Shown one piece after another: positions 14,465 through 33,582 of a stretch of DNA of 33,582 nt (position 1 is the first letter of the stretch; each line of letters begins with the position of its first letter). Source of the DNA: a virus; IMG/VR virus record IMGVR_UViG_3300048014_000390, positions 1 through 33,582 of that record; one strand, written 5' to 3'. The translations under genes were made by a program, and so were the position numbers. A model generated the notes under the pieces. The model ran no database searches and was not told where the DNA came from. It saw only the letters and a list, made by a program, of their open reading frames with translations.

Positions 14465-14507
14465 CCGGTGGGTTCAGTTTTTGGCTGGCTGGGATGAGTG
14501 GCCTTCT

Positions 14508-16640
14508 ATGAGCGGCACTTCGGTTTCACTGGCGCAATTTGCGCAGTCGCTGGCGGTGGCCGGTGCCGGCGTTGATATCGCCACCTGGACCGCGACCATC
14601 CCCGGGGCCACCGTCGCACGCACCCTGGCCAGCGGATTTGCTGACGCACCCTTCATCGAATGGTTCGGTCTGTGCGGTAACGGCGGCGACGACACGGCGG
14701 TATTCAACGCGGCGGTGCAAAGCGGCATTCCGTTTCGGCTTGGGCCGAAGACCTACATCGTGAACGGGTCATGGACAACCGGCACCGCCGCGTTCTTTCT
14801 GGTGCGGGGTGTGCCTGGGGTTTCCACCTTACGGCGCCTGCAGGGCGGCACGACGGGGGCGTGGATCGGTCTGGAGTGCCCCATCGTCGATGTCGAGGAC
14901 GTGATCTTCGATGCCAATGGCACCCAGGTGAAGGCCAATACCTGGAATGTTCTCGTTGATACGACAGTGACGTCGGCCGCGTTCCGGCGCTGCGCCTTTC
15001 GCAACAATAGCGGCTCGCTGGGGCGTGGTCTGGCGATCAAGGGCAATCCGGCGGCAACGGTGCCTCATTCGGTTACTGTCGAGGATTGCGAGTTTTCCGG
15101 CAATAGCTCGGATGGCTGCGGGGTGTTCCAGGCACAGTCCGTGTCGATTACCGGGTCGCGGTCGTTCAATAATGGCGGCAGCGGGATCGCCGTATCGGTG
15201 TTCGGAACGCCAAGTTCCAGCCAGCTCAACCAGCGCCTGCTGATCCAGCGTAACCAGTGCTGGAATAACGCGGTGGACGGCATCAATCTGGGGACGATCG
15301 ATCCCACCGGGGCGAGCCCGCCGGTCTATAGCCTGGCGACACCATCGGTTGTCACGGCGTCGGTGCTGGATAATATCGTCTGGGCGAACACGTCGTATGG
15401 CATCCAGGCTTATGGGGATTACCTCGATATCAGCGGCAACCAGGTGGCGCAGCCACTGCTTGGCCTCGCTGGGATCGTGGTTACCGCGCGCTATTCACGG
15501 GTCAGCCGTAACACCTTGAATGTACCCGGCGCCTATATCGGGATCGATTCCGGCGGGTGTTTCGATTGCGATATCGTCGACAACAGCGTGACCGGATCAA
15601 CCATCGGCATCAATCCCGGCGGGTCGCAGTTCGTGACCGTTGCGGGCAACAAGGTGCGGGGCTGCCAGATCGCGATGTCGGTTTACGACATCGAGGCGGA
15701 TGGCTATGGCGTGCCGTTCCCGGCCCCGGTGTCGGCGCTGACCATCGAACGCAATACGCTGGTGGTGTCTTCGGGTGGAACAGGGATTTCGGTGCTGGAT
15801 GGGGGCACCGGCATCGCCATCGTGGAGAACCGGTTCCAGCCTGCCAACAGCAGTGTGACGGCCAACCAGGCGCTATCCTTGCGTTGCGCCGCGACGGTGC
15901 TGCGCGGCAACAGTTTCAACGGCACCGATCGGATCGACCTCAATCCGAATGCGCAGAACCTGCTGGAAATTCCCGACGTGTTCGACACCATCCGGGTCCC
16001 GGCCGGCGGCCAGATCGTGGATAGCCTGGTGCCGGCAAGCGTGGTGACAAGTTCGGGCCAGGTATCGTACCTGACAGTAACCAATGGCGGCACCGGCTAC
16101 AGCACCGCCGCGGTCGCGATCGCCGGCGCCGGCAGCGGCGCGCAAGCAACAGCCATGGTCTATGGTGGCAGCGTCATCGGCTTCCGGGTGACCAACAATG
16201 GCGGCGGTTACGTGGCGGGAAGCACGACGTGCGTGATCACCGGGGATGGCTCGGGCGCGACTGCCACGGTCGCGGTCGGCACGCCGCTGCAACAGAATCG
16301 CCGTATTCGGCTGCTGGTGGAATTGGGCGCGACGGTTCGGCAGAACGGCCAGACCATGAACCAGTTCAACACCACCCAGCGCGATTTGGTGGTGGCCGCG
16401 AACAGCGTGATCGATTGCGTCGAGAATAACGGTGCCTGGGTGCTGAGCGGGTTCTACCCGACAGCGTTGCTGCAATCGGTGGCGAGCGGCGACGTGACGC
16501 TGGCCGCGCCAGCCGGTGGAAAAATTTGGCTGCAACCCAGCAGCGGCGGCGACGTGATGCTGCCCAATTTGCCGACCTCCGCCGCCGGCCTGCCAAGTGG
16601 TGCGGTGTGGCGCCAGGGCACAACTCTGAACATCGTTTAG
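14508..16640 (+). CDS. beta-helix tailspike protein
   Basis: 710 residues from ATG 14508. The N-terminal part (about 1-70) has the 'GDDTAVFNAAVQSG' motif that marks the start of the right-handed beta-helix in many tailspikes. Then PbH1-type rungs run through SVTVEDCEFSGNSSDGCGVF, SFNNGGSGIAVS, LDISGNQVAQPLLGLAGIVV, CDIVDNSVTGSTIGI and LTIERNTLVVSSGGTGISVL. After about residue 510 come two Gly-rich repeats (TNGGTGYSTAAVAIAGAGSG and TNNGGGYVAGST). The C-terminal beta cap ends WRQGTTLNIV. Such proteins trimerise and bind or cleave surface polysaccharide; no catalytic residues can be picked. GTG 14418 is in frame, but the extra N-terminus is encoded by the palindromic repeat, so I reject it. Confidence 0.8.
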   Translation: MSGTSVSLAQFAQSLAVAGAGVDIATWTATIPGATVARTLASGFADAPFIEWFGLCGNGGDDTAVFNAAVQSGIPFRLGPKTYIVNGSWTTGTAAFFLVRGVPGVSTLRRLQGGTTGAWIGLECPIVDVEDVIFDANGTQVKANTWNVLVDTTVTSAAFRRCAFRNNSGSLGRGLAIKGNPAATVPHSVTVEDCEFSGNSSDGCGVFQAQSVSITGSRSFNNGGSGIAVSVFGTPSSSQLNQRLLIQRNQCWNNAVDGINLGTIDPTGASPPVYSLATPSVVTASVLDNIVWANTSYGIQAYGDYLDISGNQVAQPLLGLAGIVVTARYSRVSRNTLNVPGAYIGIDSGGCFDCDIVDNSVTGSTIGINPGGSQFVTVAGNKVRGCQIAMSVYDIEADGYGVPFPAPVSALTIERNTLVVSSGGTGISVLDGGTGIAIVENRFQPANSSVTANQALSLRCAATVLRGNSFNGTDRIDLNPNAQNLLEIPDVFDTIRVPAGGQIVDSLVPASVVTSSGQVSYLTVTNGGTGYSTAAVAIAGAGSGAQATAMVYGGSVIGFRVTNNGGGYVAGSTTCVITGDGSGATATVAVGTPLQQNRRIRLLVELGATVRQNGQTMNQFNTTQRDLVVAANSVIDCVENNGAWVLSGFYPTALLQSVASGDVTLAAPAGGKIWLQPSSGGDVMLPNLPTSAAGLPSGAVWRQGTTLNIV

Positions 16641-16648
16641 GAGCGGAC

Positions 16649-16831
16649 ATGGCTGCGTATCACCTGATTGTCCACAACCCCTTTGGGCCCTATCCGAAGG
16701 GCGCGCATATAACCGACGCCGCCGAGGTGGAGCGCATCCTGGCTGGTCCGCACCACCCCAATGTGCGTCGGATCGCCCCGATCGGTGAGAAGGTGCAGCC
16801 GCCCGTGCCGGCCACGGAGACATCGTCATGA
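16649..16831 (+). CDS. small protein preceding the tail sheath
   Basis: 60 residues from ATG 16649 with an excellent ribosome site (AGGAG, 6 bases away) that overlaps the tailspike stop. Sequence: YHLIVHNPFGPYPKGAHITD, then AEVERILAGPHHPNVRRIAP. It looks like a small alpha/beta domain with a proline-rich tail. The 'GxYxKGxxITDxxEVxxxL' pattern is typical of small proteins encoded just before phage sheath genes, role unknown. Its stop overlaps the sheath ATG. The strong ribosome site suggests translation restarts here to boost the following sheath gene. Confidence 0.6.
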   Translation: MAAYHLIVHNPFGPYPKGAHITDAAEVERILAGPHHPNVRRIAPIGEKVQPPVPATETSS

Positions 16832-18393
16832 CGATTTTTGCACTTGGCCAGACAAACACGGCCGCACTGACGGTTCCGAACGTCTATGTGGCGATCGTTC
16901 CGCCGCAGATCACCTACATCAACGGCGTGCCCAGCGGCCTGCTGGGCATCGTCGGCACGGCGTCCTGGGGGCCGGTCGGCGCGCCCACCGTGGTGGGGAA
17001 TTACGGCGAATATGTAACCAGTTTCGGCACGCTTCAGGCACGCCGCTATGATCTTGGCACCGCGGTGGCGGTGGCGGTGCAGCAGGGCTGCAGCAACATG
17101 ATGTGCGTGCGGGTGACGGATGGCACCGACACCGCCGCCACCTACGCCCTGGCCTACGCCAACTCCAGTTACGGCGCGCTGCTGACCAGCCGCTATACCG
17201 GCTCCTACGGCAATGCAACCGGTCTGATCATGGGCCCAGGTTCCGCCGCATCCTCGACCAAGCTCACTCTCACCTCACCGGGCGCGCCTCCGGAGATTTT
17301 CGACAACATCCTTGGCAGCGGTGCGACTTTCTGGGGCAACCTTGTCAGCGCGATCAATAATGGCGTCGGGCTGCGGGGTCCATCGCAGTTAGTTACCGCT
17401 TCGCTTGGCACCAATACCAGTGCTGCCATTCCCAGCTATGCGGTGACCGCGAATCAGACATTGACCGGCGGGACGGACGGTGTGGCGGGAATCAGCACCG
17501 CCCTGCTGCTGGGTGTTGACGGTAATGTGCGCAAGGGGATGTATGCGCTACGCGGCACCGGCTGCTCGGTTGCCATGCTGGCCGACTGTGCCGACAGCAC
17601 GAGTTGGCCCACGCAAGTGGCATTCGCTCTGTCCGAGGGCGTGTATATGATCGATTGCGGTCCGGCCGGCGACACGATCTCCGACGCTGCGGCGGTGAAG
17701 GCCAGCGCCGGGATTGACACCTATGCCATGAAGATCCTGTTCGGCGACTGGATTTACTGGCTGGATACCACCAATGGCGGGCAGATCCGTTTGATCAGCC
17801 CGACGGCGTTCTCGGCCGGGCTGCTGGCCAACCTGTCGCCGGAACAATCCAGCCTGAACAAGCAGGTGCAGGCTGTGGTGGGAACGCAGAAAACCTCCAT
17901 CAACCAGCAATACTCCCAGGCGGATTTGCAACAGCTTGCCGCGGCCTGCATCGACGTGATCGCCAATCCCGCGCCCGGCGGTGCCTATTTTGCCCCGGTG
18001 ATCGGGCGCAACGCCTCCAGCAACGCGGTGATTCACGGCGACAATTATACCAGGCTGACCAACTTCATCGCCTCCACCATCAATGCCTGGATGGGCCAGG
18101 TGGTTGGCTTGCTGCAGACGCCGACGACGCGGCGGCAGGCCTTTACGTTGCTGGACCAGTTCTTCTTCAATCTCTGGCAGCAGGGCATCATCGGCAACGC
18201 TGACGGCACGCAACCTTACGGCATCGTTCTCGATGACAGCAACAATCCGCCGTCGCGGGTGGCGCTGGGCTACATGCAGGCGAATGTTCAGGTGCAGTAC
18301 CAGAGCGTTATTGAATACATGCTCGCCGAAATCGAAGGCGGACAGAGCGTTCAGATTACGCGCCAGGCGGTGGCGCCGGCGCTTGCGACATAG
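16828..18393 (+). CDS. contractile tail sheath protein
   Basis: 521 residues. It polymerises around the tail tube and contracts on infection. The N-terminal part has GLLGIVGTASWGPVGAPTVV and VAVAVQQGCSNMMCVRVTDG, the usual sheath opening. The C-terminal half has FGDWIYWLDTTNGGQIRLIS, LNKQVQAVVGTQKTS, NFIASTINAWMGQVVGLLQT and a final beta strand (VALGYMQANVQVQYQSVIEY), matching the conserved C-terminal domain that forms the sheath mesh. Length is typical. It is translationally coupled to the 60-residue gene before it (ATGA) and is followed by the tube gene after 13 bases. Confidence 0.9.
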   Translation: MTIFALGQTNTAALTVPNVYVAIVPPQITYINGVPSGLLGIVGTASWGPVGAPTVVGNYGEYVTSFGTLQARRYDLGTAVAVAVQQGCSNMMCVRVTDGTDTAATYALAYANSSYGALLTSRYTGSYGNATGLIMGPGSAASSTKLTLTSPGAPPEIFDNILGSGATFWGNLVSAINNGVGLRGPSQLVTASLGTNTSAAIPSYAVTANQTLTGGTDGVAGISTALLLGVDGNVRKGMYALRGTGCSVAMLADCADSTSWPTQVAFALSEGVYMIDCGPAGDTISDAAAVKASAGIDTYAMKILFGDWIYWLDTTNGGQIRLISPTAFSAGLLANLSPEQSSLNKQVQAVVGTQKTSINQQYSQADLQQLAAACIDVIANPAPGGAYFAPVIGRNASSNAVIHGDNYTRLTNFIASTINAWMGQVVGLLQTPTTRRQAFTLLDQFFFNLWQQGIIGNADGTQPYGIVLDDSNNPPSRVALGYMQANVQVQYQSVIEYMLAEIEGGQSVQITRQAVAPALAT

Positions 18394-18406: not shown

Positions 18407-18844
18407 ATGCCGATCAACAGTTTGAACGTCGGTCGTGACGTGGTGGTGGATATCATCGATCCGACCAATGGCGGCGTGTTGGCCTGGGCGACCGTGACCG
18501 GCTTCCAGGCGCGGCAGAAAAGTCGCAATCTGCAATCCATCGCGATGGACGGCACCAACAACTATGCCGAGTTGCCACAGGGCTGGGATCTCAGTTTCCA
18601 GGTAGACCGTGCCAGTTCGGCGGTAGATGACTATTTTGCCACGCTGGAGGACGGGTATTTCACCGGTGTGGCAACGACAGCGGTGCAGATCACCGAGACG
18701 ATTTCGGAAGTGGATGGTAGCACGTCGCAATATCGCTATGAAAGCGTGGTGCTGAAGCTGGCCGATGGCGGTTCGAAGACCGGCGATGCCTACATCAAGA
18801 TGAAGGTCGAAGGCATTGCCAGCCGGCGGCGGAAGATAAGCTGA
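18407..18844 (+). CDS. tail tube protein
   Basis: 145 residues, behind a strong GGGAGG ribosome site that starts at the sheath stop. This is the inner tube subunit of the contractile tail. The beta-barrel features are SLNVGRDVVVDIIDP, AWATVTGFQARQKSRNLQSI, LPQGWDLSFQVDRASSAVDDY, VQITETISEVDGSTSQYRYE and IKMKVEGIASRRRKIS, in the order expected of P2 FII/T4 gp19-type tubes. Position right after the sheath is diagnostic. The stop overlaps the start of the chaperone gene. Confidence 0.85.
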   Translation: MPINSLNVGRDVVVDIIDPTNGGVLAWATVTGFQARQKSRNLQSIAMDGTNNYAELPQGWDLSFQVDRASSAVDDYFATLEDGYFTGVATTAVQITETISEVDGSTSQYRYESVVLKLADGGSKTGDAYIKMKVEGIASRRRKIS

Positions 18845-19215
18845 TGGCGCGCGTGACGATTCACGGTGACACGCCGCCGGCGGCCGCCGCGCCGCCGCCC
18901 GGACAGTTCAGCATTGAATTGGAGGATGGCCGCACCATTACCTCCAAGCCGATGCTGAAGGTGCGGGAGGAGATGGCGCTGTCCGAACATATTGGGGCCG
19001 ACACCAGGCTCAATCCGGTCTGGGTGCTGTGGGCGACGATCGCCTGTTGTGTCACCCAGATCGACGACGAACCGGTGCGCATGCCGGTGAGCAAATTGCA
19101 GATTGAGGCGCTGGTCGATCGCATCGGTGACGAAGGGATGCGGGCCTTGCTGGTGCGCTATCGGCAGAACAGCGAGGAGCGCGAACGGCGCACCCTGGAG
19201 AGAGCAAAAAACTAG
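18844..19215 (+). CDS. tail assembly chaperone, short (zero-frame) form
   Basis: 123 residues, ATG overlapping the tube stop. The Pro/Ala-rich N-terminus is followed by FSIELEDGRTITSKPMLKVREEMALSEHIG and a helical part (QIEALVDRIGDEGMRALLVRY) ending in a charged tail. This is the position and plan of P2 gpE and other tail assembly chaperones, which coat the tape measure while the tube polymerises. The last codons are GCA AAA AAC TAG, creating the slippery heptamer A AAA AAC just before the stop. The normal product ends at the TAG; a minority should shift -1 to give the long form. Confidence 0.8.
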   Translation: MARVTIHGDTPPAAAAPPPGQFSIELEDGRTITSKPMLKVREEMALSEHIGADTRLNPVWVLWATIACCVTQIDDEPVRMPVSKLQIEALVDRIGDEGMRALLVRYRQNSEERERRTLERAKN

Positions 19216-19403
19216 CCGGGCACCCCGGGTTCAGAACCGCGCTTTATCTGGTGAGCTGCGGGGTGCCCTATGAAACGGCGTTCGAGATGGATCCGGCCGA
19301 AGCGTGCGCGGCTTGCGTGGTGTTCGGCGAAATCGGTGCCGGTGCGCGGCGGCCGGTGCGGTTCGACTGGTCGACAATGAGTTGGGGCGATGATGGCGAC
19401 TGA
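18844..19403 (+). CDS. tail assembly chaperone, -1 frameshift fusion form
   Basis: Predicted 186-residue fusion made by slipping back one base at 19206-19212. After the slip the ribosome reads CTA GCC GGG... and adds 63 residues. They begin LAGHPGFRTALYLVSCGVPY, continue ETAFEMDPAEACAACVVFGE and end FDWSTMSWGDDGD. The extension has no ribosome site or suitable start of its own, stays open to TGA 19403, and overlaps the next gene by 14 bases. This is the arrangement of P2 E/E' and lambda G/GT. The long form is the one that binds the tape measure in those systems (known for the family, inferred here). Confidence 0.82.
19206..19212 (+). promoter_or_regulatory. programmed -1 ribosomal frameshift site
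   Basis: A AAA AAC, a canonical -1 slippery heptamer, in register with the zero-frame codons AAA AAC and followed at once by a TAG stop. Downstream, CCGGG (19216-19220), loop CAC, CCCGG (19224-19228) can form a short hairpin. GGTT/AACC (19228-19238) is a second, competing candidate. The first hairpin is only 3 bases from the heptamer, closer than the usual 5-9, so its role as a stimulator is uncertain. The slip site itself is clear. Confidence 0.85.
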
Positions 19404-19752
19404 TATCGCACTGGCGAGCTTCGCGCAGAATTTGCAGCGCTGGATGGAGATTTGGCATTCCATGCAGCCCCACAGCCTGGCGAGCGCGGGTGAAATTCTG
19501 CGTGGCGAGGCGGCGGATCTGCAGCCGGTGCTGGGCGACGCGGTGGGTGTTGCCGTGGATGGCGGGACGGGGCAGGTCGGCGTGCCTGAGCGGGTTGGCG
19601 ATGCGGCGCTGGCGGCGGAATTCGGCACCGAGAGCACGCCGTCGCAGCCGTTCCTGGGCGCGGCGGCAGCGCGCCGGCTGGATGATGTCGGCGAGGTGCT
19701 GGCATCCGGCTGGTTGAGTGCATGGCGGCAGAGCCTGCAGGGCCGATCATGA
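19390..19752 (+). CDS. HK97 gp10-like tail completion protein (tentative)
   Basis: 120 residues (ATG 19390, second ATG 19393; GGGG upstream suits the second). It starts with a helix (ALASFAQNLQRWMEIWHSMQ). Near the C-terminus it carries DAALAAEFGTESTPSQPFLG, whose 'AxxxEFGT...xQPFLxxA' pattern is characteristic of HK97 gp10/tail-completion family proteins. It ends in a helix (ARRLDDVGEVLASGWLSAWR). That family usually sits in the neck cluster, before the tube, but here it lies between chaperone and tape measure. It overlaps the frameshift product by 14 bases and the next gene by 4 bases. Confidence 0.55.
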   Translation: MMATDIALASFAQNLQRWMEIWHSMQPHSLASAGEILRGEAADLQPVLGDAVGVAVDGGTGQVGVPERVGDAALAAEFGTESTPSQPFLGAAAARRLDDVGEVLASGWLSAWRQSLQGRS

Positions 19753-20837
19753 TCGAGGCGTTCCGCATCGGCGTGCAGATGACGATGGATGCCGCGGATA
19801 CGCAATCGGTCGTGCATCTGCTGGCGCGCGATTTTACCGCGTTGAACCAGCAGATCACGCAGACGCAAAGCGGGATCGCCGCGATGCGTGCGGGGCTTAG
19901 CGATCTCGCCGGGCAGCGGACATCGCTGCGGCGGGACCAGGACATGGTGCAGCAAACCGCGACCTGGCAGGCCGTTGCATCACCGGTGCAAGCGGCGGCG
20001 GCACAATCGCCGCCGAGGTCTGGCCAAACCGTGGCGCGCCTGCCGTTCGATGGCGTGGTGGGGGACATGGTGCGCGGCGATGCGCAGCGGCCGGTTGACT
20101 TGCCTGTGCGGGACGATCCGTCGCTGCGGCCGGGGCAACGCCTGGAGGAGCCCGACCCTGCCTTGGCGATCTTGCCGGCGCTGGCGACATTGCTTGATCG
20201 GCGGCACCAGCCACAACCCTGGATGGCGGATCAGCCAACGGCGGCTGTTGCCGCCGCGGCGCCCGCGCTAATCGGTGCGGATGGCTCGGTGAGGCAATCC
20301 GTGGCGGAGCCGGCCGTTGCCGCATGGGTGCCGATGCGCGATTTTGGGCCGCCGGACAGCACGGCGTTTGGCGGCTTCGCTGCCTGGCCATCGGGCCACG
20401 ACGCGGTTTCACCGCGGCAGTTCGCCGCGCCGCTCGCTGGTGGAGCGCAGCAAGCCGCCCAACCAGGCGAGACGGACCTGCGCGCGGTGGTTAGTCAGAT
20501 CGCGGCGCTGACGGCTTTCGTGACGGCCGAGCGTCACCTGCCGCACCCGCGGACGAACCCGGTTCTTCCATCGCCCCCGGACATGTTTACCACGCGGGCG
20601 GAGTTGGGGGTGCCGATGCGGGCGGGGGAAGCGGAAGAGCCGCCAACATCGCGCGCCACGCCAGACCGTGGCTCCGCCGAACCGATGCCGCAACTGGTGA
20701 TCCATACCGACCTGCACCTGGATGGGCAGGTCATTGCGCGTGCCGTGACGCAGCAGATTGTTGACTGGATGAACGCCCCGCTGCCGGGTGCCGGCGGGTT
20801 TGATCCGCGACGCTCCTACACGCCGGTTGAGTCCTGA
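19749..20837 (+). CDS. miniature tape measure protein
   Basis: 362 residues from ATG 19749, which overlaps the previous stop. The N-terminus IEAFRIGVQMTMDAADTQSV plus a coiled-coil (ARDFTALNQQITQTQSGIAA) looks like tape measure starts. The C-terminus LVIHTDLHLDGQVIARAVTQ, then GAGGFDPRRSYTP, matches the 'DxxLDGxxxxRxV...GFDPR' ending of that class. The middle (about 65-320) is proline/alanine-rich and of low complexity, with no clear transmembrane segments. Position between chaperone and GpU-like gene is where the tape measure must be, and no other long gene fits. Tape measures are usually 600 residues or more, so the tail should be very short. The frame is open from 19722, giving a less likely longer form. 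Confidence 0.65.
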   Translation: MIEAFRIGVQMTMDAADTQSVVHLLARDFTALNQQITQTQSGIAAMRAGLSDLAGQRTSLRRDQDMVQQTATWQAVASPVQAAAAQSPPRSGQTVARLPFDGVVGDMVRGDAQRPVDLPVRDDPSLRPGQRLEEPDPALAILPALATLLDRRHQPQPWMADQPTAAVAAAAPALIGADGSVRQSVAEPAVAAWVPMRDFGPPDSTAFGGFAAWPSGHDAVSPRQFAAPLAGGAQQAAQPGETDLRAVVSQIAALTAFVTAERHLPHPRTNPVLPSPPDMFTTRAELGVPMRAGEAEEPPTSRATPDRGSAEPMPQLVIHTDLHLDGQVIARAVTQQIVDWMNAPLPGAGGFDPRRSYTPVES

Positions 20838-31466: not shown

Positions 31467-32393
31467 ATGCGTGCAGACCTGCTTCACGTTATCGCGGCAG
31501 TTGCCAATCCGATTCGCTGGAACAGCCGCATACGGCTGGCGCGCGATTTCATTGCCCACATGTTGGATAGTGGCGTGCATGTCACCATCGTGGAATGCGC
31601 CTATGGCGACCGTCCGTTCGATCTGGCCGAGGTAGCGGGGATCAATCATGTCGGCGTGCGGGCGAAAACGCTGCTGTGGAACAAGGAGTGCCTGCTGAAC
31701 CTTGGCATGGCCCGCACCCCGGCCGCGAAATATCTCGCGTTTCTGGATGCCGACATAAGGTTCCGCAAACCGGATTGGGCAGCCGAGACGGTGCATGCCC
31801 TGCAGCAATATGACGTGGTTCAGCCCTGGAGCGACTGTTACGATCTGGGGCCGGACGACGATCATCTGCATGTGCATCGTTCATTCTGCCGGCTATGGGC
31901 AGATGGACGCCCGATCGTGCAGGGCCCGAATGCGCTGGACGGCTACCAGTTCGGCCATCCCGGGTACGCCTGGGCCTTCACGCGCCAGGCGCTGGACTGG
32001 CTGGGCGGGCTGATCGAAACCGCGTCACTGGGTGCTGCCGACCATCATATGGCGCTGGCCTTGATCGGCCGCGTCACTGACAGCATCCCCGGCACGATCA
32101 GCGCCAACTACAAGAAGCCGATGCTGCAATGGCAGGCCCGGGCGATGCGGCATATCGCCGGCAACATCTCCTACGTGCCGGGCACGATTGAGCATTTCTG
32201 GCACGGCGCGAAGGAGCGGCGGGCCTATGTCGACCGCTGGTCGATCTTGACGGGCAACGGATTTGATCCGGAGACCGACCTGAAGCGGAACAGTTTCGGC
32301 GTGTTCGAGCTGGCCGGCAACAAGCCGAAATTGCGCCGCGACATCGATGCGTACTTCCGTAGCCGCAACGAAGACAGCACCACCCTCAACTGA
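31467..32393 (+). CDS. GT-A fold glycosyltransferase-like protein
   Basis: 308 residues, GGAG 6 bases before the ATG. The fold markers are an early strand (VHVTIVECAYGDRPFD), a segment RAKTLLWNKECLLNLGMART, then KYLAFLDADIRF with the metal-binding DxD (D94-A95-D96). Later come GYQFGHPGYAWAFTRQALDW and GAADHHMALALIG, typical of the acceptor side of GT2/GT7-like enzymes. The substrate is unknown. It sits in the lysis region between a holin-like gene and a lipoprotein, with no other sugar-pathway gene in view. A role in changing the host surface or a virion component is possible but not shown. Confidence 0.7.
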   Translation: MRADLLHVIAAVANPIRWNSRIRLARDFIAHMLDSGVHVTIVECAYGDRPFDLAEVAGINHVGVRAKTLLWNKECLLNLGMARTPAAKYLAFLDADIRFRKPDWAAETVHALQQYDVVQPWSDCYDLGPDDDHLHVHRSFCRLWADGRPIVQGPNALDGYQFGHPGYAWAFTRQALDWLGGLIETASLGAADHHMALALIGRVTDSIPGTISANYKKPMLQWQARAMRHIAGNISYVPGTIEHFWHGAKERRAYVDRWSILTGNGFDPETDLKRNSFGVFELAGNKPKLRRDIDAYFRSRNEDSTTLN

Positions 32394-32820: not shown

Positions 32821-33582
32821 ATGGTTCCGCACAAGAAGCTCGGCCGGCTCCCGCGCACCTATGACCAGCGGGTGCCGCATCTGTCGTCGCTGATGGCCGG
32901 TCGCCTGAGCGCGCTTGCACCGCCGCCCGCGGTGGTGGACCGGATGTCGAAACTGCCGGCGAACTGGGGCGTGATGGGCAATGATCGGCTCGGCGACTGC
33001 ACCTGCGCCGCATTGGGCCACGCGGTGCAGCTCACCAGCTTCGTGATCGGTCATGAGCGCACCCCGGATGACGCGATGGTGTTGCAGCTCTACCAGCAGG
33101 CCTGCGGCTGGCGGCCGGATGATCCATCCTCCGACCGTGGCGGTAACGAACAGTCGGTGCTGAGCTATGTGCACCAGCATGGCATTCCGCTCGCACCTGG
33201 TCAGACCGACGCGGTTGCGGCCTATATCGAGGTAGACCCCCGTAACCTTGATGACCTCCGGCGGGTGATCAACGAGGCTGGCTTTGTCTATGCCGGCGCC
33301 GATATCCCGGAGGCCTGGACGCAGGGCACCGACTGGACGGCGCCGAGCCCTGGCACCCGGCCTGCCGGCGGACATGCCTTCATGATCGGCAGCTATGATC
33401 GGGATTTTTTCTACGCCGTGTCCTGGGGCGAGGTGGTGCGGATCACGCCGGCCGCCATCCAGGCTTGCGTTGTCGAAGCCTATGCCGTGGCGCTGGACTC
33501 ATGGTTCGCGCGCAGCGGCATCACCGTCGGCGGCCTGACCAAAGCTGAGCTGGTCGAGGCGATGCAGGGGCTGGCCGGCTGA
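32821..33582 (+). CDS. papain-like cysteine peptidase-like protein
   Basis: 253 residues from ATG 32821, ending exactly at the window edge. No signal peptide. Around residue 55 the stretch GNDRLGDCTCAALGHAVQLT (Cys60 and Cys62) resembles the Cys block of papain-fold peptidases. GGHAFMIGSYD (His184) and YAVSWGEVV (S200-W201-G202) fit the His block and the region where papains carry N-S-W-G. The usual Asn is not obvious, so activity is not certain. Phage-encoded relatives of this type are known to me only as hypothetical or C1-like. It might process virion proteins or act at lysis; context does not decide. Confidence 0.55.
   Translation: MVPHKKLGRLPRTYDQRVPHLSSLMAGRLSALAPPPAVVDRMSKLPANWGVMGNDRLGDCTCAALGHAVQLTSFVIGHERTPDDAMVLQLYQQACGWRPDDPSSDRGGNEQSVLSYVHQHGIPLAPGQTDAVAAYIEVDPRNLDDLRRVINEAGFVYAGADIPEAWTQGTDWTAPSPGTRPAGGHAFMIGSYDRDFFYAVSWGEVVRITPAAIQACVVEAYAVALDSWFARSGITVGGLTKAELVEAMQGLAG

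Follow-up and report, generated by a model that had tools for sequence, protein, structure and literature searches.

Does the break between two overlapping reading frames in a tail gene of this virus mark a site where ribosomes are programmed to slip? We analysed the whole 33,582-base IMG/VR record IMGVR_UViG_3300048014_000390, hereafter the window, and compared the junction with its counterparts in related phages, prophages and plasmids. We consider it highly probable, on sequence evidence, that a programmed -1 ribosomal frameshift cassette occupies this locus, within the tail assembly chaperone gene of a contractile-tailed phage. About 120 related phage lineages keep the slip site, the stop codon that follows it and a folded RNA expected to promote slippage, and the predicted frameshift is thereby well supported.

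The tail gene neighborhood and the two frames

Family models identified a contractile-tail gene set in the window: terminase, portal, sheath, baseplate J, spike and lysozyme. The genes from sheath to tape measure, and all elements of the junction, lie on the + strand. The tail sheath gene (16828-18393; phrog_23, tail sheath, E = 4.5e-42) is followed by a gene that we assigned to the tail tube by its position (18407-18844; phrog_12993, unknown function, E = 3e-38), and in relatives as well the tube gene follows the sheath and precedes the chaperone. The zero-frame ORF (18844-19215), whose ATG overlaps the stop of the tube gene, encodes a 123-aa G-like putative tail assembly chaperone. The next gene (19390-19752) had no family match in Pfam or PHROGs in the window's own copy; relatives at the same place resemble Phage_tail_S or HK97 gp10, which are tail completion proteins. 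After it comes a candidate short tape measure gene (19722-20837), proposed from its position and likewise with no family match in Pfam or PHROGs.

The order sheath, tube, chaperone and then tape measure is common to the window and its relatives. The earlier note on this DNA had placed the chaperone between tube and tape measure; that order holds, but one extra gene (19390-19752) intervenes. Since this gene is tail-completion-like in relatives, the tape measure lies one gene further on than in lambda. The candidate tape measure has 371 aa here, about 390-407 aa in the close relatives L003 and L004, and 697-742 aa in L016 and phiKX1. From the shorter candidate a shorter tail would be predicted.

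Related plasmid prophages carry varying cargo in the stretch that separates the tape measure gene from the tail completion-like gene (L014:4098-4631, L018:9208-10284, L020:9214-10775, L019:9631-10239 and L015:9409-10227). The cargo includes a restriction endonuclease (PADLOC Mrr-like), AAA ATPase, DUF4760 and BRO-family genes, as well as a DUF3037/HipA-kinase pair matching the PADLOC candidates PDC-M66A/B. This stretch of the tail operon may serve as an insertion site for cargo or defence genes. Elsewhere in the window, a right-handed beta-helix protein (14502-16637; Pfam Beta_helix, E = 2e-11), likely a tail spike, is encoded upstream of the sheath gene and apart from the other tail fibre-like genes. 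At the right end, the ORFs 31467-32390 and 32824-33582 had no Pfam match at E 0.001; the former looks glycosyltransferase-like by eye.

The zero frame ends in GAG AGA GCA AAA AAC TAG. The slippery heptamer A AAA AAC (19206-19212) is therefore exactly in register, as the earlier note had it, and the TAG stop (19213-19215) adjoins its 3' side. The -1 frame (19212-19403) opens at the last heptamer base with CTA GCC GGG CAC CCC GGG TTC (LAGHPGF) and ends in FDWSTMSW. It too has the predicted extent: it is open for 63 codons and, up to the end of its stop (19401-19403), overlaps by 14 bases the next ORF, whose first base is 19390. The predicted fusion product has 186 aa. Few X XXY YYZ sites (Y = A or T) fall in register: the window's likely genes have 3 in 8020 codon positions. 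In the homologous genes, sites of the motif's type occupy 11 of 16,714 upstream codon positions.

The sole PHROGs match of the short form above chance level was phrog_20383 (unknown function, E = 6e-13), and no named chaperone family matched in Pfam, PHROGs or PDB sequences. Pfam searches with 48 short-form and 48 extension sequences gave no supported match, the scattered weak ones being to single members of unrelated families. The two halves were folded separately with AlphaFold. The N-part (mean pLDDT 89) was predicted to be small and of mixed fold, with a long helix at its C-terminus, and the T-like C-part (mean pLDDT 87) to have three helices. Among viral structures the best match was a phage protein that carries no name (E = 4e-5); several proteins with the name tail assembly chaperone came among the weaker neighbours (E = 0.2-1.2), and a PDB structure search found no resembling structure.

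With no named family matched, the chaperone role rests on place and architecture. Tail assembly chaperone families are diverse, and homology to a named family is not defining for the kind. The best reading is that the protein is a tail assembly chaperone, on the basis of position, architecture and a weak fold resemblance rather than homology to a named family. Like the chaperones of lambda and P2, it would be made in two forms, one G-like and one GT-like, and it would belong to a family that is unnamed in the libraries searched.

Conservation of the frame break and the heptamer

Close IMG/VR relatives (L002-L011), collected first, keep the -1 protein as well as the slip site. The chaperone evolves fast, so we used the tail sheath to reach further relatives; this gave phage and plasmid records, followed by 80 loci from GTDB genomes and 80 viral loci. 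A profile scan of GTDB genome contigs with the chaperone alignment gave no match, whereas the sheath alignment did find loci; tblastn of the fused protein against phage records also gave no match. Profile models of each half were then searched against stop-to-stop frames, and both halves were present in 161 loci, a few of which are overlapping records of one contig.

In all 161 loci the C-part stood in the -1 relation to the N-part, and in none were the two in the same ORF; the HMM found the -1 part conserved as a protein in 162 loci. Homologues with an intact single frame, which the earlier note had named as evidence against a frameshift, were thus absent from these IMG/VR, GTDB genome, phage and plasmid records. 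It had also proposed asking of an alignment whether heptamer and -1 frame are conserved together. They are, with a canonical X XXY YYZ heptamer in register in 156 of the 161. Seven further loci had an N-part without a C-part match, three of them cut by contig ends. The other four contain a slip motif followed by a -1 frame: GCA AAA AAC TGA in L048, L136 and L164, which the C-part model had missed, and C CCT TTA in L013. The last motif is that of Alicyclobacillus phage MMB025.

The 156 heptamers, which form 120 clusters at 85% identity, are G GGA AAC (76 loci), A AAA AAC (58), A AAA AAG (9), A AAA AAA (6), A AAA AAU (3), G GGA AAU (2), C CCU UUG (1) and C CCA AAC (1). On a sheath tree of 118 lineages the heptamer class changed at least 7 times with slipperiness kept throughout; the swap from Ala-Lys-Asn to Ala-Gly-Asn, for example, retains slipperiness and follows no residue logic. 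Such switches indicate that slipperiness is conserved rather than the residues or a homopolymer, which argues for ribosomal and not transcriptional slippage. The five loci with the -1 relation and no canonical heptamer (L042, L093, L100, L117 and L177) may reflect sequencing errors, the decay of prophages or sites of an unusual type. The motifs of L177 (A AAA AGC) and L042 (G GGG GAA) look like weakened heptamers.

The same heptamers bear on whether RNA polymerase rather than the ribosome slips. If polymerase added one A in an A6 run, the ribosome would read the fused frame without slipping, and the window and most of the A AAA AAN loci, a class that numbers 76 of 156, have a six-A run that would allow this. 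Yet G GGA AAC or G GGA AAU is found in 78 of the 156 loci, and C CCU UUG or C CCA AAC in two, and none of these has a run of more than three identical bases. The zero-frame register is, moreover, always X XXY YYZ, and a conserved stem lies downstream at a spacing suited to the ribosome (see below). The G GGA AAC class leads us to reject transcriptional slippage as the common mechanism, and we consider it very improbable.

Another possibility is that the two frames are separate genes, the second being translated from its own start: GTG at 19251 in the window, or the start annotated at 31738 in phiKX1. Indeed, in the phiKX1 and phiKX2 records the -1 frame stands as a protein of its own, 59 aa long (L012:4739-4918 in phiKX1). 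Particles of phiKX1, from Komagataeibacter xylinus NBRC 13772, have been observed by electron microscopy (PMC8566455). However, the -1 peptide is conserved from the first residues after the heptamer (LSRHP), upstream of any start that the homologues share. They have no conserved Met or ATG. The conserved GTG (codon 18) becomes GTT or GTC in seven junctions where its stem partner changes, and two genes would leave the heptamer unexplained. We regard separate translation as slightly less probable still than slippage by the polymerase. A disrupted gene or an assembly error, for which the frame break itself is the sole point, has a negligible probability, as the same break occurs in 161 loci from many assemblies, including several complete plasmids and isolate phages, and both halves are conserved as proteins.

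In the plasmid loci (L014, L015, L016, L017, L018, L019 and L020) the -1 frame lies where the gene tables leave roughly 160-200 nt without annotation, the PLSDB tables being incomplete. One record has a 49-aa protein called inside the gap (L018; a Pantoea record). The frameshift reading thus corrects the annotation of a frame that is missing from plasmid gene tables and split off as its own protein in phiKX1 and phiKX2.

The downstream stem-loop and the abutting stop codon

As a possible stimulator, the earlier note had pointed to a hairpin at 19216-19228 and suspected that the true one might be unusual or absent. The inverted repeat is present (-6.9 kcal/mol alone), but as a folded element it is outcompeted by a 10-bp stem (-28.9 kcal/mol) and it is not what pairs in relatives; we therefore rejected it. 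Contrary to the suspicion, a conserved, covarying stem-loop lies at a normal spacing. In the window its 5' arm, GGGCACCCCG (19218-19227), begins 5 nt after the heptamer and pairs with the 3' arm, CGGGGTGCCC (19259-19268), which holds the codons of CGVP. The spacing in relatives is 5-6 nt, within the range of about 5-9 nt expected of -1 frameshift sites.

We compared the folding of 57 nt, counted from the fourth base after the heptamer, with that of synonymously resampled versions in 119 lineages. The mean energy was -26.6 kcal/mol versus -16.4 kcal/mol after resampling (mean z -3.0), and in the window -30.3 versus -19.6 kcal/mol. In a gapless alignment of 86 junctions, nine common pairs were formed in 96.2% of cells, a value that describes lineages sharing the stem because the alignment was picked from these; shifting the partner lowered it to 41-54%. 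Changes on both sides of a pair occurred in 9 cells versus 0.7 in shuffles. Column pair 16-60 displays such compensatory changes, with C-G in 78 distinct rows, A-U in 5, G-C in 1 and G-U in 1. Codon identity in excess of the codon-usage expectation peaked at -1 frame codons 2-4 and 16-18, where the two arms of the stem lie. Smaller excesses occurred at other codons, above all codon 1, which holds part of the stop. Gly17 is encoded by GGG in 85 of the 86 junctions, while GGG makes up 23% of Gly codons. The 34 lineages outside the stem group had a mean z of -1.4. By these measures the stem-loop is strong, conserved and covarying, and it should act as a frameshift stimulator.

A Shine-Dalgarno-like stimulator was also considered, as a first profile gave about -1 kcal/mol of extra pairing 6-10 nt upstream. 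It was rejected for the family: over the 24 nt upstream in 120 lineages, with the codon before the heptamer excluded, the mean z was -0.11 +/- 0.10. The window alone has GGAG upstream (-6.4 versus -4.9 kcal/mol). Rfam gave no match in 18900-19600.

Outside the stem group, strong structure tends to be missing at A AAA AAG and A AAA AAA sites. In the whole set, mean z was -0.5 for A AAA AAR (14 lineages), -3.0 for A AAA AAY and -3.6 for G GGA AAY. The association of A AAA AAR with absence of the stem was significant by Mann-Whitney test (p = 6e-5) and non-significant by sign test on 5 supported independent tree pairs, a paired phylogenetic test that is underpowered; we keep it as a suggestion. 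In E. coli, A AAA AAG ranks with the strongest motifs (PMC4066793), which makes a balance between heptamer strength and downstream structure plausible.

The first zero-frame stop adjoins the heptamer in 121 of 156 loci (93 of 120 clusters), and all three stop codons are used. Taking account of synonymous codon usage at each locus, of the first base, which is fixed, and of the amino acids of the -1 frame, we computed an expectation of 22.9 adjoining stops in 119 lineages; 92 were observed. Where the -1 frame begins Leu-Ala and a stop needs the codon CTA, it was present in 21 of 26 cases versus 1.8 expected. On the tree, stop identity changed at least 18 times with adjacency kept, and adjacency itself 16 times. 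The excess and the changes on the tree suggest that a stop at this codon is under selection.

The sequence data fit two readings of the abutting stop, precise termination of the short form and a release-factor-sensitive stop in the A site. A stop at the HIV-1 site lowered frameshifting in cultured cells, an excess of release factor reduced it further, and in a bacterial assay RF2 suppressed it (PMC4373837). The efficiency here may accordingly be low. It could be speculated, though we find it rather doubtful, that the signal includes the stop in the A-site position as a functional element, with the ratio of short to long chaperone set by release factor against slippage and with stem-loop and heptamer slipperiness tuned against each other. 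In that case the host's level of release factor would influence tail assembly.

From the signal and its conservation, both read directly in the DNA, we infer the slip event, its rate, its timing relative to the stop and the function of the products. For most ribosomes translation would end at UAG, yielding the 123-aa short chaperone. The stem-loop 5 nt downstream would halt a minority, with AAA in the P site and AAC in the A site or, alternatively, with UAG in the A site just after translocation. Both tRNAs would slip one base back onto AAA AAA, and 63 more codons would be translated to give the 186-aa fusion. By analogy with lambda gpG and gpGT, coating of the tape measure protein would fall to the short form and recruitment of tube subunits to the long form.

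In this family a single bacterial -1 signal exists in roughly 120 naturally diverged versions, in which heptamer, stop and stem vary while the frames are fixed. It is a natural series for testing how structure balances motif strength and whether slippage precedes or follows the entry into the A site of the codon behind the heptamer.

Comparison with known frameshift systems

Chaperone frameshifts in tailed phages have long been known. In P2, which also has a contractile tail, E and E+E' are produced by a -1 frameshift in a chaperone located between tube and tape measure. The locus is similar to P2 in tail type, in the place of the chaperone and in the direction of the shift, but the P2 slip site is a run of T followed by G.

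As Xu, Hendrix and Duda (2004) are cited in PMC5009743, the tail assembly chaperone frameshift, known from lambda gpG/gpGT, is conserved in dsDNA phages. Our family shares with these the order tube, chaperone, tape measure, an X XXY YYZ -1 slip near the end of the short frame and a short C-terminal extension in the -1 frame. It differs in showing no sequence homology to named families in the libraries searched, and in having a strong conserved stem-loop and an extra tail-completion-like gene before the tape measure. The stop is also placed differently: it lies 0 nt from the heptamer in most lineages, compared with a mean motif-to-stop distance of 26 nt (SEA-PHAGES) or 36 nt (Xu set) reported with PRFect for published tail chaperones (PMC10885494).

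A stop codon adjoining the 3' side of the slippery site is found in eukaryotic RNA viruses, although the proteins are unrelated. The IS911/IS3 and dnaX cassettes are similar in having an A AAA AAN-type motif and a downstream structure at short spacing (PMC4066793); unlike these, our family has no consistent upstream Shine-Dalgarno-like stimulator, and its stop abuts the motif. The mechanism is therefore of a known kind, and the new parts are the abutting stop, apparently under selection, and the covarying stem found family-wide.
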